A stretch of DNA of 52,597 bases from Flavobacteriales bacterium. GTDB lineage: Bacteria > Bacteroidota > Bacteroidia > Flavobacteriales_D > Sanyastnellaceae. Positions 6,068 through 30,141 of this stretch are shown here, piece after piece (the stretch's first letter is position 1; each line of letters begins with the position of its first letter). The stretch is taken from the NCBI GenBank assembly GCA_028823145.1, contig JAPKCA010000004.1, positions 1-52,597 of the forward strand. The letters run 5' to 3'. A program made the translations under genes and the position numbers. The notes below the pieces were generated by a model. That model was not told the DNA's origin and made no database searches. It saw only the letters and a program-made list of their open reading frames with translations.

Positions 6068-8308
6068 TTAATATCCAAGGGTCCGCCGGCGAATGATCCA
6101 CTCGCACGTTAGCCAACCAATGAGTAGCCATAAGATAAATCGCCATTGAATCAAATCATCCAAATGGACTTGTTCATGCATGATGGGAGCAGGCCAACCA
6201 TTGGCTTTCATCGCTGCAATGATGCGCTCAGAAGTTTCGTTGTCGAAACCACCGCAAAAGGAACCTCCCGTCTTTTCGGCAAGCCGGATCAATATGTCGT
6301 GATCGGCTGCTTTGCTGCTCATTTCTGCGCGCAATGCTTCGACAATGCAAGCGCCGTTGGCGTTGAATATTTCTTGATCTAAGGTGCATTGAGCCGTCCA
6401 GGTATACCTTCCAGCGGGCAGTCGTCCGGCGTCTATTGCATAACGATTTCCACGTCGAAGGAAACTGTATGAATACACATCACCGTCTTGAGCTTCGAGT
6501 TCGAGCGTCATATTCGCCGCTTCGACGGGGGTCATGGTCGCGTCGTAGACCTCGCCAGTGAAAACGAGACGTTGATCTGATTCAATTCGCTTGGGTGCAT
6601 CGACTCGGAAACGATCTAGGTTTTCTTGCGACCCCAAGAATTGCACTTGTTTTTGAATGATGGCATTGAACAGGTCGTGATTTCCCTCTTTTAAAAAGCT
6701 GCGCATACGCCAGCTCCAAAAACCTTGACCAAAGCTGACGGCCATTCTTCGGGTCGATGCATCCGTTCGAACTGCCCAAAACGCCTGTTCGGTTTCCAAT
6801 GCCCCCAGCTGTCGGTACATCAAGGGAGTCCATGCTGGTGACCATGCGATGTTCCCGAAAGGTCCTTGAATAGGAGGCCATTGGCGAATGGCATTTTCAA
6901 GTCCAATGGGAAAATCAAAAAGGGCAAAAGTCGGATTGAGTCGGGATTGGTGAGCTTCTGTGATACCGGTGGACTGCTCAATTTGAACCCCCCATTGGCG
7001 ATGAAATTGGAGAGCATCCTGCGTTTCTAAGTTGCCCAAAATCCACCAAACGGGCTGTGTGTTCATCTCCATAATATTGGTCCAATCCAGGCCTCCAAAA
7101 GTTTGCCCTAGGATGTTATGGGCCAGGATGACATCGGCATTTTGAATGGACGCCAGCAATTCTGAAGCATTTTTGAGAAGGGACAAATGAACCACCTCCA
7201 CCTCTGTTTGCTCGTTGGCTTGCAGGGCCAATAGGATAGAATTTACATCTGGATGGGGTGCTGCAGTGATGCAAAGGACTTGCCGCTTGCTCTCTAAGAC
7301 TTCGACATAGAAGGTGACTGCATTGTTTTGAGGATTGGCCTCACGGTCGCCAATACTGCATCGAATTTCAAACCTTTGGTTGCCAATTTTCTCGGCAGGA
7401 ATAACGAATTCCAATCGTTTCGAAGCGTTGTCGGATGAGGGGGTCCAACTGGTTTTTCCCAGTCGGTCATTCCCGTGAAAAATTTCTATGATGGCCTCTT
7501 CTCCACTCATGTCTTGCGCCTGGATCACCGCTTCTAGTGGAAATGTGTTGCCCAAGTATGCGACCCTATTGTGGTCCACCCGGTCAATCCAACGATCCCT
7601 GATGGCAAGAGTGTCACCCAAACCAACGGTAAATAGCCGGGCTTTCGGCCAGGAAGTCATGTATTCAGGATTCGAGCCACGGTTGCTTAAACCATCGCTT
7701 GCCAGAATAAGTGCCGCAATATTGCGGTGCTCAAAGCGGCTGTTAATTTCTTGAACAGCAGCATCCAAATTGGTTTGCTCTCCGTCCCACGTAGACTCAG
7801 ACCAAGTTTGCGCGTTTCGGGGTTTGATATCACCTGCAAAACCAAAGGATTCGAGGTGAACGCCTTCGGCAAGGAGCCGTTCTTCTAACTCCCCAGGCCA
7901 GGCCCGGAGGGTCTTAAGCATTTGTGTGGAGTCTGCATTGCGCAATACCGATGCACTTTCATCCATCAACAAAACAGCCACGGGGTTTTCTTGGTCAATT
8001 TTAACGGTTCGAACCAATGGCTTCAGGAGTAAAAAGGCCAGAGTTCCGATACTGAGCATCCTTAACAGGGCGAGAGCCAATCGACCGGATATGCGGAGTC
8101 CACCACCAGTGGATTGCTTTTGAATGCCTATTTTTCTTCCGTACAACCACCACCCACCAAGTAAGCAGACCAAAGCGATGGCGGCGTATTGCCATGGCTC
8201 TCCTCCCACCAAAAGCTGTGGCTGGACAAACGTCAGCAAGGGAGGGGTGAAATGGAGTGTCGGCACGTGGAGTGGATTCAGGCCGTAATCATGCCTCCGT
8301 CCACGCAA
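6068..8308 (-). CDS. VWA-domain membrane protein with a GATase-like region
   Basis: About 730-746 residues. Two N-terminal membrane segments (~39-56 and ~77-96) are followed by a von Willebrand A-like domain with the metal site D116-E-S118-A-S120 (DxSxS). An Ig-like region and a segment resembling class I glutamine-amidotransferase folds (from ~residue 340) come next. A C-terminal membrane helix (W-R-F-I-L-W-L-L-I-G-W) ends the protein. Similar uncharacterised proteins are common in Bacteroidota and planctomycetes. The given start is a TTG inside fabG; a GTG at 8266, 12 nt after the fabG stop, is an equally good start. It is the last gene of the operon that begins with the amidase gene at 13377. 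Function unknown. Confidence 0.75.
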   Translation of the reverse strand: MRGRRHDYGLNPLHVPTLHFTPPLLTFVQPQLLVGGEPWQYAAIALVCLLGGWWLYGRKIGIQKQSTGGGLRISGRLALALLRMLSIGTLAFLLLKPLVRTVKIDQENPVAVLLMDESASVLRNADSTQMLKTLRAWPGELEERLLAEGVHLESFGFAGDIKPRNAQTWSESTWDGEQTNLDAAVQEINSRFEHRNIAALILASDGLSNRGSNPEYMTSWPKARLFTVGLGDTLAIRDRWIDRVDHNRVAYLGNTFPLEAVIQAQDMSGEEAIIEIFHGNDRLGKTSWTPSSDNASKRLEFVIPAEKIGNQRFEIRCSIGDREANPQNNAVTFYVEVLESKRQVLCITAAPHPDVNSILLALQANEQTEVEVVHLSLLKNASELLASIQNADVILAHNILGQTFGGLDWTNIMEMNTQPVWWILGNLETQDALQFHRQWGVQIEQSTGITEAHQSRLNPTFALFDFPIGLENAIRQWPPIQGPFGNIAWSPAWTPLMYRQLGALETEQAFWAVRTDASTRRMAVSFGQGFWSWRMRSFLKEGNHDLFNAIIQKQVQFLGSQENLDRFRVDAPKRIESDQRLVFTGEVYDATMTPVEAANMTLELEAQDGDVYSYSFLRRGNRYAIDAGRLPAGRYTWTAQCTLDQEIFNANGACIVEALRAEMSSKAADHDILIRLAEKTGGSFCGGFDNETSERIIAAMKANGWPAPIMHEQVHLDDLIQWRFILWLLIGWLTCEWIIRRRTLGY

Positions 8309-22655: not shown

Positions 22656-22683
22656 AATGCTCAATAGCATTTTTAGGACATCC

Positions 22684-23937
22684 ATGCGTTCATTTCACGT
22701 TCCCGATTTTTATCACAGTCCCATCATTTCGAGGGTTAAACACTTGAGAAAGGCACAGGATCCTAGAAAACAGGATTTCACTCCATCCGTATTGGATTTT
22801 GGCTCGGTTCGTTTCATTTTGGCTCGTCATTTTGGATTCTGTTATGGAGTTGAAAACGCCATTGAAATTGCCTATCAAGCCATTGAGGAGAATCAGGGCA
22901 AGCGCATTTTTCTGTTGAGTGAAATGATTCACAACTCGGAGGTCAATTCGGATTTAAGCAGCCGTGGAGTGGGTTTTTTGATGGATACTGAAGGCCAGGT
23001 GATTACCCCATTTGATCAGCTGACTTCCGAAGATGTGGTCTTGATTCCCGCCTTTGGCACGACCTTGGAAATGGAACAACAGCTGCAAGCCATCGGTTTG
23101 GATGTGGAGCGTTACAACACCACCTGTCCATTTGTGGAAAAAGTATGGAAGCGAGCGGCCAAATTGGCGATGGAGAAATACACCATCATTATCCATGGAA
23201 AACCAGAGCATGAAGAGACGCGGGCAACCTTCAGTCATGCCCAAGAAAAAGGACATGCGGTCGTAATTCTGAATATGGCTGAAGCTGAAATTTTATCGGA
23301 TTTCATATCGGGTGAACGGCCATTGGATACATTCGATGCGACTTTTGGCCCACGCTGTACACCAGGATTTGATCCAAACGTCCATCTTCAGAGTGTTGGG
23401 GTCGTCAATCAAACCACCATGTTGGCATCGGAAACGAAGGCCATTAGTCATCGGATTCGCAAGGCCATTGAAAGCCGCGAGGAAGGACAGTTTGCCAATA
23501 CGCGAGATACGTTGTGTTATGCAACCAATGATAATCAGCAGGCGACGATGGGAGCTTTGGAGGCAAGAGAAGCGGATTTGGCAGTGGTCGTCGGAGGGTA
23601 CAACAGTTCCAATACATCCCATTTGGTTGAATTGTGCGAAGAAAATCTTCCAACCTTTTTCGTTCGCAATGAATTGGAGTTTGATACCGACGGTACGTTG
23701 AATCATTTTGACTGGCGGACCGGGTTGCATCAATCCACCATGTCACCATGGCCTGAAACGGGACGTTCAGGCGTTCCAACCATTTTAATTACGAGTGGAG
23801 CCTCATGTCCAGATGCGTCGGTGGATCGGGTCATGAAGGAAGTCATCGGGCAATATGCCAACACGCGCATTGTGGATGAAGTGTTGAAGGAATTTGAACA
23901 ACGTCTTGCGGTGAATCAAAGCTCCAGTGAAGGTTGA
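22684..23937 (+). CDS. ispH: 4-hydroxy-3-methylbut-2-enyl diphosphate reductase (long form)
   Basis: 417 residues. Last step of the MEP pathway, making IPP and DMAPP with a 4Fe-4S cluster. Three cluster cysteines are visible: H-F-G-F-C-Y-G-V, T-T-C-P-F-V and S-G-A-S-C-P-D-A. The start M-R-S-F-H-V-P-D-F-Y matches the N-terminus of the long IspH type found in Bacteroidota and cyanobacteria (about 400 residues, against ~315 in E. coli). Insertions such as H-F-D-W-R-T-G-L are typical of this form. Isoprenoids from this pathway would also feed carotenoids, whose genes appear lost at 28966-29315. Confidence 0.95.
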   Translation: MRSFHVPDFYHSPIISRVKHLRKAQDPRKQDFTPSVLDFGSVRFILARHFGFCYGVENAIEIAYQAIEENQGKRIFLLSEMIHNSEVNSDLSSRGVGFLMDTEGQVITPFDQLTSEDVVLIPAFGTTLEMEQQLQAIGLDVERYNTTCPFVEKVWKRAAKLAMEKYTIIIHGKPEHEETRATFSHAQEKGHAVVILNMAEAEILSDFISGERPLDTFDATFGPRCTPGFDPNVHLQSVGVVNQTTMLASETKAISHRIRKAIESREEGQFANTRDTLCYATNDNQQATMGALEAREADLAVVVGGYNSSNTSHLVELCEENLPTFFVRNELEFDTDGTLNHFDWRTGLHQSTMSPWPETGRSGVPTILITSGASCPDASVDRVMKEVIGQYANTRIVDEVLKEFEQRLAVNQSSSEG

Positions 23938-26874: not shown

Positions 26875-27807
26875 ATGTGGAATGAATTGAAAATGCAGTG
26901 GAAGCAGGGCGGCATTTTAGTGCGCCTGATCTTGGTCAATGCGGGAGTTTTTGTCGTGATGACCACTCTGCAATTGCTGGTTACCTTAAGTGGTGGGCAA
27001 CCATTTCCATTGGACGAAGCCTTGGGTTTAGCTACGACTTGGAATCCACAGCTTTTGATGGAGCGGCCGTGGACGATCTTGACCCACATGTTCGTTCATA
27101 TGCGGGTGTGGCATCTGGTGATCAACTTGGCTTTGCTTTATTGGATGGGCCGTTTGTTTATGATTCAATTTGGATCCCGTCGGCTTTTAAGCACATACAT
27201 TGTCGGTGGGTTGGCTGGTTTTGTCTTGTATTTCGTGGCGACCAATGTTTTCCCAGCTTTGCAACAAGGTCAATATGCCTACGGGGCGAGTGCTGCGGTG
27301 ATGGCCATCTTTGTTGCTGCAGCGACAAAAGAGCCGGAGCGTCCGATTGGACTGATTCTGCTTGGGTCCGTTCCGCTGAAGTACGTTGCGATTGGATTCG
27401 TATTGTTGGATTATTTCGCATTGAGCAATGGAGAGAATATGGGCGGGAATTTGGCTCATCTGGGTGGGGCACTCTTTGGGTTTTTAATGGTACGTCAGCA
27501 GCGAAACGGAAGAGATCTGGTCGGTTGGTTTGAGCGATTGTTGGATGCGATCATCTCACTTTTTCAGAGCCGCTCGGATTCGAAGATGCGCATGGAAAAA
27601 GGGGGGAGATTCAACCGTTTTTCCAAGAAAAAAAAGAGGACTGAGAGAAAAACTTCCCGCGCGCAGTCTGACGATGAATTCAACGCACAGAAACAAGAGC
27701 GCGAATCTCGGATGGATGGCATCTTGGATAAGATATCCAAACATGGCTACGACAATTTGTCAAAGGAGGAAAAGGCTTTTCTGTTTAATGAGTCCAACCG
27801 GGGATGA
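26875..27807 (+). CDS. Rhomboid family protease with C-terminal charged domain (second of two)
   Basis: 310 residues. The membrane core has Ser in A-Y-G-A-S-A-A-V-M-A and His in N-L-A-H-L-G-G-A-L-F-G. The C-terminal ~95 residues are cytosolic and basic (R-F-S-K-K-K-K-R-T-E-R-K), then end with I-S-K-H-G-Y-D-N-L-S-K-E-E-K-A-F-L, a motif shared by many Bacteroidota rhomboids (DUF6576-like). G-A-S-A replaces the usual G-A-S-G. The stop overlaps the next start by 4 bp (ATGA). Tandem rhomboids at this place are common in Bacteroidota. Confidence 0.9.
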   Translation: MWNELKMQWKQGGILVRLILVNAGVFVVMTTLQLLVTLSGGQPFPLDEALGLATTWNPQLLMERPWTILTHMFVHMRVWHLVINLALLYWMGRLFMIQFGSRRLLSTYIVGGLAGFVLYFVATNVFPALQQGQYAYGASAAVMAIFVAAATKEPERPIGLILLGSVPLKYVAIGFVLLDYFALSNGENMGGNLAHLGGALFGFLMVRQQRNGRDLVGWFERLLDAIISLFQSRSDSKMRMEKGGRFNRFSKKKKRTERKTSRAQSDDEFNAQKQERESRMDGILDKISKHGYDNLSKEEKAFLFNESNRG

Positions 27808-28952
27808 AAAAGGAACGTCGGGCGGTTTGGCCCATGCTGCTTGTTATTTCTGGTCTTTTAGGGGTTGTTTTGGCAGAGATCGGAGTCCGATTCAACATGC
27901 CTTCGTGGCCATGGCTCGGAGTGGCTTGCATGCTTTTTCCACTGAGTTGGATGGTTTTATTCATCGGAGCGATCGGAGGACTTTGGTCGCGTCGCATGCG
28001 TTCTGTTGCCTGGGCGTTGGGGGCATTGTTTCTGTCATACCCGCATGCTGCTCAAACGTTTGGATGGCCAATTATTAGGACATCATGGGGGATTGAATCT
28101 CCAGCTTTGAATTATGCGCCAGGAACGTCATCTCGGTTTCAAGAATCGGATGAAAAGGTGGATTCAAAGGAGTTGCACGTCCTCAGTTGGAACGTTCGGC
28201 AATTTGATCGTTTGGAGTGGTTAAAGAATACCAATTCAAGGTCGGAAATGTTGACGTATATCGAGGAGGTGGCTGCTGATGTCGTGTGTATCCAAGAATG
28301 TTTTTTGGAAGAAAACAATGATCCCTGGATGACCAAGAAGCGGTTGTTGCAGGCTTCCGGTTTATCCCATTGGGCGGAAGAATTCAAGTTTGGTCGGGGT
28401 CACCAGAAGTTGTTTGGACTAGCGGTGATGTCCAGGCATCCAATCATCCAAAAACGCGCCATCGTATTTCCAGATGAGCCAAATAACAGCGGGATGTTGG
28501 TGGATATCGAATTGGACGGTGATACCATTCGTGTGTTCAACGTTCATTTGAGTAGTATTCACTTTGAAGAAGAGGATTACGAAGCGGTTCGTACCGGTCC
28601 TGATTCAGCGGAACGCTTAAGGTTGCTGAGCCGATTGGAAAGGGCTTGGGAAAAGCGTGCTGTGCAAGCAAAAATAGTTGCCCAACATGTGGCGGATAGT
28701 CCCTACCCGGTGGTGTTGATGGGTGATTTCAATGATGTCCCTGTTTCCTTTGCAGCACAGCAATTTCAGCCATATCTCGTGGATGCATATTCAGGTGGAC
28801 AAGGATTTTTGGGAGCAACCTACATTGGAGATATTCCGGGAATGCGCATCGACTTTGTCCTGCACAGCCCCATAATGAAATGCCGGTCCTATGAAACGGG
28901 CGATGTGGTCTTATCGGACCATCGACCGGTCAGCGCTCACCTGATTTGGTGA
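27804..28952 (+). CDS. Membrane-anchored endonuclease/exonuclease/phosphatase (EEP) family protein
   Basis: 382 residues. Two to three N-terminal membrane helices (~9-75) are followed by an EEP domain. Its motifs are L-S-W-N-V-R-Q-F, V-C-I-Q-E-C-F, V-H-L-S-S-I-H-F, M-G-D-F-N-D-V-P and L-S-D-H-R-P-V. The family includes DNase I-like nucleases and inositol phosphatases; a periplasmic phosphodiesterase role is inferred from the membrane anchor. It ends the mutL-rhomboid operon. Confidence 0.88.
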   Translation: MKKERRAVWPMLLVISGLLGVVLAEIGVRFNMPSWPWLGVACMLFPLSWMVLFIGAIGGLWSRRMRSVAWALGALFLSYPHAAQTFGWPIIRTSWGIESPALNYAPGTSSRFQESDEKVDSKELHVLSWNVRQFDRLEWLKNTNSRSEMLTYIEEVAADVVCIQECFLEENNDPWMTKKRLLQASGLSHWAEEFKFGRGHQKLFGLAVMSRHPIIQKRAIVFPDEPNNSGMLVDIELDGDTIRVFNVHLSSIHFEEEDYEAVRTGPDSAERLRLLSRLERAWEKRAVQAKIVAQHVADSPYPVVLMGDFNDVPVSFAAQQFQPYLVDAYSGGQGFLGATYIGDIPGMRIDFVLHSPIMKCRSYETGDVVLSDHRPVSAHLIW

Positions 28953-28965
28953 TGCGAACACCTCT

Positions 28966-29315
28966 TCATTGCTTCTGAGATCGGCCCAAGTTCAGTCTTC
29001 GATTTTTGAGAATTTCGAAACCCGCAATGTGCATTCCAATCAAAAGAAAACCATAAATCAAGTCATCTGCTGGCATGCTGAATATTCGCCAACCCATGTT
29101 GTGGTCAGGATTGTACCAAACAATGGATTCAGTGACCTGTTCGCTTAGTTGGTGAATGAAGACATCATGGACCAAGAAAAAGGCACCTTCAACGGCATGC
29201 AACCATGGTGGGGAGATTTGCCTTTTGATGCGATGGTGGTTGCTGCTTCAATTCCTGAGAAACCAGCCCCAATAATCAGCGCGTCGGCTGTGTGTGCAGA
29301 TGAGTTGGTGTCCAT
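28966..29315 (-). pseudogene. Carotenoid operon scar: crtI-like N-terminus joined to lycopene cyclase C-terminus
   Basis: Reading the minus strand, an ATG at 29315 opens a frame with D-A-L-I-I-G-A-G-F-S-G-I-E-A-A, the FAD-binding start of an oxidoreductase of the phytoene desaturase (CrtI) type. It loses similarity after residue ~33 (about 29217) and stops at 29145. In another frame, from about 29225 to the stop at 28966, lies the C-terminal repeat of a lycopene cyclase domain protein (CrtYcd): I-V-W-Y-N-P-D-H-N-M-G-W-R-I-F, then A-D-D-L-I-Y-G-F-L-L-I and F-E-I-L. The two ends are out of frame, so nothing functional is made. One internal deletion that removed the middle of both genes and all between them explains this. 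The cyclase assignment is firmer than CrtI, which could be another FAD enzyme. Confidence 0.75.
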
Positions 29316-29397: not shown

Positions 29398-30141
29398 ATG
29401 ACACAATCACCAATCGACCCCATGGATGTGTGTGCATTCGGTGCACATCCAGATGATGTGGAGTTGGCAGCCGGTGGAACGGTGGCGCTTTTGACATCGC
29501 AGGGAAAGCGTGTCGCCCTGGTGGATTTGACCCGCGGAGAATTGGGAACGCGTGGAACAGCTGAAACACGTAAATCCGAAGCAGCTGCTGCTGCTGCTAT
29601 TTTGGGTGTTGCCCATAGAGAAAATTTAGATCTTGGCGATGGCTTTTTTGAGATGAATGAAGCTTCCTTGTTGGCTGTGGTAGAAGTGTTGCGCCGGTTG
29701 CGTCCTTCTGTCGTCATTGCCAATGCGAAGTCGGACAGGCACCCAGATCATGGCCGGGCAAGTGAACTCGTCAGTCGCGCGTGTTTTCTGAGCGGCCTTT
29801 CAAAAATTCAAACCGTCGATGATCAGTCTGGATTACCGCAGGAGGCTTGGCGCCCTCGTTCGGTTTATTTCACTATTCAAGATCGGTGGCGAGAGCCAGA
29901 TTTTGTGGTGGATATCGAAGGTTTTGAAGAAATCAAATCACGCGCCATCATGGCGTATGCCACCCAATTTTATGGAGGTGTTGATGACAATGCCCCGGTC
30001 ACTCCCATCAGCTCTCCAGATTTTTTAGATTATCTAAAGGGCCGGAATCTGGCCATGGGAAGATCTGGGGGAGTGCGGATAGGAGAGGGGTTTGAAGCCG
30101 AACGTCCGCCCGTTGTGAATGATTTATTCCACCTCGCCTGA
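29398..30141 (+). CDS. bshB1: Bacillithiol biosynthesis deacetylase BshB1
   Basis: 247 residues, LmbE/PIG-L deacetylase fold. Zinc site G-A-H-P-D-D at 15-20, with the third ligand in S-D-R-H-P-D-H-G. D-L-T-R-G-E-L-G-T-R-G and Y-A-T-Q-F-Y-G are characteristic of BshB1. It deacetylates GlcNAc-malate in bacillithiol synthesis. BshA and BshC are not in this window. The start follows a -7 box by 4 nt. The 3' end overlaps the convergent flippase gene by 18 bp. Confidence 0.93.
   Translation: MTQSPIDPMDVCAFGAHPDDVELAAGGTVALLTSQGKRVALVDLTRGELGTRGTAETRKSEAAAAAAILGVAHRENLDLGDGFFEMNEASLLAVVEVLRRLRPSVVIANAKSDRHPDHGRASELVSRACFLSGLSKIQTVDDQSGLPQEAWRPRSVYFTIQDRWREPDFVVDIEGFEEIKSRAIMAYATQFYGGVDDNAPVTPISSPDFLDYLKGRNLAMGRSGGVRIGEGFEAERPPVVNDLFHLA

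Follow-up and report, generated by a model that had tools for sequence, protein, structure and literature searches.

Carotenoid gene pieces between the EEP gene and bshB1

The window analysed here is the whole 52,597-nucleotide stretch of contig JAPKCA010000004.1 (assembly GCA_028823145.1) of a Flavobacteriales bacterium, whose genome is called G000 below. Its minus strand carries a 350-base remnant of a carotenoid gene cluster at 28966-29315. To the left lies an endonuclease/exonuclease/phosphatase (EEP) family gene (27804..28952, plus strand; PF03372, 81.2 bits), and to the right bshB1 for the bacillithiol biosynthesis deacetylase (29398..30141, plus strand; TIGR04001, 268.7 bits, cut-off 182.5). 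Translated comparison showed three gene pieces in native order, the remnant being collinear with the cluster of relatives: 33 crtI codons, 32 bases, 12 crtZ codons and about 62 crtY codons. No intact cluster gene is left in the window, and about 6.5 kb is missing compared with the cluster of the relative G018. The initial annotation had placed two minus-strand pieces here, a crtI-like head and a lycopene cyclase tail. Both lie where it put them and both identities were borne out by tblastn and tblastx, by synteny and, for crtY, by PF18916, but the count was too low, the third piece being crtZ. A literature search among open-licence papers found no description of this scar.

The crtY (lycopene cyclase domain protein) 3′ remnant runs from the second repeat to the stop (28966..29154, minus strand). 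Its frame is open over 93 codons and ends at 28966. The predicted lycopene cyclase match of the 28966-29225 frame was confirmed with the Pfam model Lycopene_cyc PF18916 (45.7 bits, cut-off 27, profile positions 41-91 of 92), while the NCBIfam model TIGR03462 stayed below its cut-off (24.8 vs 39.4). In tblastn the tail matched all 17 same-genus loci with 54.0-69.5% identity, and at the DNA level none of 480 shuffles reached its score. The tail holds one partial repeat and is not a complete two-repeat CrtY; the same-genus relatives with a PF18916 match have two repeats.

The crtI (phytoene desaturase) 5′ remnant comprises the first 33 codons from an ATG at 29315 (29217..29315, minus strand) and includes a Rossmann FAD site. 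A CrtI profile match had been expected for this frame and was not obtained: no CrtI profile, TIGR02734 included, exceeded its cut-off, and only weak generic FAD/Rossmann matches appeared (best E 0.0056). The crtI starts of relatives, on the other hand, were matched. With tblastn (E up to 0.01) this was the case in 6/17 same-genus loci (E 0.009 to 5e-9), including all five sister genomes (E 5e-6 to 5e-9), and with tblastx in 16/17, the exception being a contig that ends inside the cluster. The residues at the crtI start read GFSGIEAATTIASKG in the window, GFSGIAAATELAS(K/Q)G in the sisters and GFAGIAAATQLA.LG in the other clade. The start-to-start distance of crtI and bshB1 is 83 nt in the window and 79 nt in G018 and G020. 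N-terminal homology to crtI is present at the syntenic start beside bshB1. Because 141 of 480 shuffles reached the DNA-level score of the head, which is thus not above shuffles overall, its identity rests on translated homology together with synteny.

The crtZ (carotene hydroxylase) remnant consists of 12 codons, AFFLVHDVFIHQ (29149..29184, minus strand), in frame with the crtY piece. It was 66.7-91.7% identical to crtZ in 17/17 same-genus loci. The same crtZ position was best in 15 of the 16 clusters tested by shuffling, and 6/480 shuffles reached the score; this test was run without the G017 locus L045, whose contig ends inside the cluster. The piece is therefore homologous to the cluster gene that occupies this position in relatives. 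It meets the crtY piece in frame at a point where crtZ and crtY of the nearest relatives both read CACCA (29150..29154, minus strand); in locus L048, for example, crtZ reads ATT CAC CAA and crtY reads TTG CAC CAT. Judged by these nearest relatives, CACCA is a possible microhomology at the joint. The 32 bases that separate the crtI piece from the crtZ piece (29185..29216, minus strand) may be filler or an unrecognisable remnant. Aligned as DNA and in three frames against the relatives' loci, they gave nothing above shuffles and no consistent place. One deletion joining crtI directly to crtY, as first proposed, does not account for the locus: because the crtZ fragment separates the two ends, there are at least two joints and a single simple deletion is insufficient.

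Further to the left in the window, the plus-strand open reading frame 22657..23937, a putative ispH gene, is open over 426 codons and has homologues with 66.9-73.7% identity in the 10 relatives' stretches that reach this gene. The initial claim that ispH is intact agrees with this, and the supply of isoprenoid precursors would be kept.

The intact cluster in relatives

PF18916 was searched over 60 relatives, of which 48 had a match, including 17/21 same-genus genomes. The loci of these 17 genomes were fetched, and gene order was checked with the eight cluster proteins of G018 as queries. All eight genes, in the order crtI-crtB-hyp-idi-crtD-cruF-like-crtZ-crtY, were found in 16/17 same-genus loci, and in the remaining one (L045, from G017) the cluster is cut by the contig end. 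Both flanks are visible in 13 of the 17, and in all 13 the cluster sits exactly between the EEP gene and bshB1, as the initial annotation had anticipated for close relatives. EEP adjoins crtY in 16/17 loci and bshB1 adjoins crtI, in divergent orientation, in 14/17. The exceptions are G011, which ends before EEP, G010 and G017, where the contig ends before bshB1, and G015, which has bshB1 on another contig. Of the genomes from outgroup genera, G023 and G033 carry all eight genes between EEP and bshB1, and G030 carries seven of the eight (no hyp match); in the outgroup G024 there was no EEP, hyp or cruF match, and the best matches of crtD and crtI fell at one place. The intact ancestral state is thus seen in sisters and outgroups alike. 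A scan of the wider genome contigs for bshB1 gave three loci, two of them distant (48-50% identity).

In G018 (L046) the cluster spans about 6.9 kb. Its proteins exceeded the cut-offs of the lycopene cyclase, Caroten_synth, CrtD (553 bits), idi, SQS_PSY and CrtID (685 bits) profiles, but did not reach those of the CrtB and CruF equivalog models. The G018 crtZ had no meaningful match in Pfam and NCBIfam; of 109 plasmid records, the ten listed (from Pantoea, Paracoccus and Sphingomonas) carry 'sterol desaturase family' genes with 38-43% identity to it, and in the one Pantoea record inspected the crtZ-like gene adjoins crtB. Several crtD matches were reported with an in-frame TGA, which may reflect matches overrunning the terminal stop. 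Compared with such an own-genus cluster, the remnant has the same place and strand and lines up with it at the crtI start, the crtZ piece and the crtY end; the cluster is complete in G018, whereas in the window no gene is intact. Relative to G018 and G020, the missing sequence amounts to about 5.8 kb plus about 0.75 kb.

Carotenoid, rhodopsin and blh genes in the rest of the genome

The draft assembly of G000 comprises 2,257,071 bases in 196 contigs and is 85.42% complete, and genes not found in it could in part be unassembled. The only PF18916 match in these contigs is the window's own 51-position crtY remnant. The contigs of this 85%-complete genome gave no crtB, no idi and no crtI over the cut-off; three CrtI-model matches of 19-28 bits, far below the cut-off, were weak matches to FAD starts. 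Within these contigs, the genome-wide check called for earlier turned up no crtB, no idi, no crtI over the cut-off and no other lycopene cyclase match. Among the 22 genomes compared (G000 and 21 of the same genus), crtI over the cut-off, crtB and idi were each found in 18, G000, G006, G017 and G021 being without. No bshB1 was found in G006, G017, G021 and G003, and the G017 contig ends inside the cluster; because bshB1 is missing there too, the absence of crt genes from G006, G017 and G021 may reflect incompleteness. G006 has rhodopsin and blh matches together with no crtY, crtI over the cut-off, crtB, idi or bshB1, and the locus is possibly missing from that draft. All five sister genomes have matches to crtI, crtB, idi, crtY, rhodopsin and blh.

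Rhodopsin (PF01036) was found in 18/22 genomes, that is in 18/21 same-genus relatives, and in none of G000, G005, G007 and G021. Because G005, G007 and G021 also lack a match, rhodopsin is not universal in the genus. A relative's rhodopsin matched solved proteorhodopsins, with a best E of 2.7e-96. Among eight rhodopsin loci fetched from both clades, the order selD, rhodopsin, maf, guaA was seen in seven, and the eighth ends before selD. In G000 the neighbours of this site lie on one contig (C7, L096), where the selD stop (6455-6457) and the minus-strand maf stop (6454-6456) overlap; in G014 (L083), 949 bases holding the rhodopsin gene separate the two stops. A rhodopsin search of the G000 selD-maf stretch gave a best match of E 4.1 and no remnant, indicating that rhodopsin is absent from this conserved site. 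G007, which is 95% complete, combines carotenoid genes and blh with the lack of a rhodopsin match, and may be another case of loss in the genus, a partial one.

For blh (PF15461), 18/22 genomes matched at E 0.001 or better, 17 of them over the cut-off. No match was obtained in the 85%-complete contigs of G000, nor in G003, G004 and G021. The blh neighbourhood of G000 is broken up over contigs C8 and C44. Its left neighbour stands at a contig end (L112), just past which blh would lie, and the right-hand neighbours (asnS, lolD, adhesin) are followed by other genes than in relatives (L121, 7984-13286). With one side cut off by a contig end and the other rearranged, blh is scored as 'not found' and not as 'shown deleted'. 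In the sister G011 the reading of blh (L104, 1492-2391) is 85% identical to that of G018 but interrupted by two in-frame stops (TAG, TAA), which may be decay or sequence error. The initial annotation had missed that the carotenoid loss is accompanied by an empty proteorhodopsin site and by the lack of any blh match.

The number of photolyase genes was considered as a sign of a dark habitat and dropped. PF03441 has one match in G000 and three in 15/21 relatives; G017 and G021 also have one, and G010, G016, G018 and G020 have two. The photolyase kept by G000 matched deoxyribodipyrimidine photo-lyase models best, below their cut-offs.

Polarity and age of the loss

A tree of the window, four outgroups and 18 same-genus relatives was built from eight proteins around the locus; some data were missing, and G024 contributed only 229 residues. 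In this tree the window is sister to G018, G020, G014, G008 and G011, inside the genus, with support 1.0. Since these five sisters keep the cluster, it was the G000 lineage that lost it.

The conservation of the pieces was used for a rough estimate of age. Over 50 codons the crtY remnant had a mean identity of 0.647 to 12 intact copies from the other clade, and the five intact sister copies had 0.587-0.635; over 40 codons the values were 0.735 vs 0.671-0.752. In simulations started from the sister copies, an outcome with no stop and identity at least as high as observed occurred in 0.93% at 0.05 neutral substitutions per site, 6.3% at 0.02 and 10.7% at 0.01; these figures are to be read against 20%, because without any decay one of the five sisters reaches the observed identity, and the age bound is rough. 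Synonymous sites between G000 and the sisters are near saturation (pS 0.79-0.86). With the crtY remnant about as conserved as intact copies, these rough estimates suggest that the carotenoid loss came late on the G000 branch. The crtI head, short and with its last codon at the joint, had an identity of 0.609 over 23 codons vs 0.692-0.719 in the sisters, and this lower conservation points to decay older than one would infer from the tail. The 'dated record' of pigment loss put forward at the outset thus stands as a rough upper bound on age and no more, the remnant being only 40-50 codons long.

Discussion

We interpret the 350-base stretch as the deletion scar of an eight-gene carotenoid cluster, in a lineage that dropped its proteorhodopsin light-energy system, and give this full explanation a probability of about 0.85. 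In the ancestor, the stretch from the EEP gene to bshB1 would have held crtI-crtB-hyp-idi-crtD-cruF-like-crtZ-crtY on its minus strand. One loss would have removed about 5.8 kb, from about codon 34 of crtI to the middle of crtZ, and another about 0.75 kb, starting again in mid-crtZ and reaching the second repeat of crtY, with a joint that coincides with the 5-base CACCA identity and may have formed by slippage or end-joining. Going by what is known of the pathway, a cell with no phytoene synthase, phytoene desaturase and lycopene cyclase would make no beta-carotene, the source of retinal. The conserved selD-maf site holds no proteorhodopsin gene, and blh was not found in the 85%-complete genome. 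With the opsin, the carotenoid cluster and probably blh lost, proteorhodopsin photoheterotrophy would be lost as well. The system was most likely dropped since light would have been of no benefit in the habitat. A tentative extension, which we hold to be rather doubtful, is that rhodopsin was lost first and that two or more deletions then removed the cluster, less than about 5% neutral divergence ago, as the last step of an ordered dismantling of photoheterotrophy in a genus that otherwise uses light.

How the joints arose allows a different account, in which one complex event, a single break repaired by template switching, copied in a short crtZ stretch, and perhaps the 32 bases too, as filler. 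The crtZ piece is just 36 bases long, shows the 5-base identity at its joint with crtY and follows 32 bases whose origin could not be traced, all of which favours such a repair. However, the piece is placed and oriented as in the intact cluster, and two ordinary deletions explain it with no filler; a complex event is conceivable, at odds that we put well below even. It is far harder to believe that the metagenome assembler bridged crtI and crtY while the organism still has the cluster. The draft is fragmented enough, with 196 contigs and 85% completeness, for this to be considered, but a wrong bridge would hardly insert a crtZ piece and 32 unassigned bases, no crtB, idi, crtI over the cut-off or other lycopene cyclase match occurs in the G000 contigs, and rhodopsin is independently absent from a contiguous site.

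The crtZ-crtY fusion frame, with up to 93 codons between stops, could be selected as a small membrane protein instead of being decaying DNA, as its lack of a stop and an identity to relatives about equal to that of intact copies might indicate. A recent loss accounts for the same facts, though; the frame covers roughly half a repeat of a cyclase that has two, and its first ATG falls within the crtY part, with only TTG codons before it. We consider a selected fusion protein very improbable. Finally, the G000 lineage might never have had rhodopsin at selD-maf, with others in the genus having gained it and only the carotenoid loss being real. The site is clean of any remnant, and the rhodopsin-site survey covered the window's own genus, both of which leave some room for this view. 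Against it, the same site is occupied in both main clades, inside one of which the window is nested, and 18/21 same-genus relatives have rhodopsin, making a primary absence unlikely in our judgement.

Taken as a deletion scar, the locus can be compared with known systems. In the part of PMC3587595 considered here, beta-carotene is converted to retinal through blh, and Dokdonia and related flavobacteria likewise have rhodopsin present or missing at syntenic places together with beta-carotene and blh genes for retinal; the strains compared in that part have the carotenoid genes, which are deleted in G000. For marine archaea, the relevant portion of PMC6461757 likewise describes a pump absent from some lineages and present in their relatives, and proposes its loss in deep-water lineages, the hypothesised cause being life below the photic zone. 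That portion deals with presence and absence across genera, whereas G000 has a readable pigment-cluster scar with a rough age bound and has kept one photolyase.

The locus is a clear new case of a known process, the loss of photoheterotrophy. When a lineage is said to have lost a light pump, the claim often rests on nothing more than the absence of the gene. In G000 there is more to go on: with a readable scar, a further empty site on a different contig and a good range of relatives for comparison, the loss can be polarised and its age roughly bounded, and the question of habitat can be asked. The lineage appears to have given up the use of light late in its history. The case also suggests that carotenoids in the genus are dispensable for life as such, so that their main use may be to supply retinal or to protect against light.
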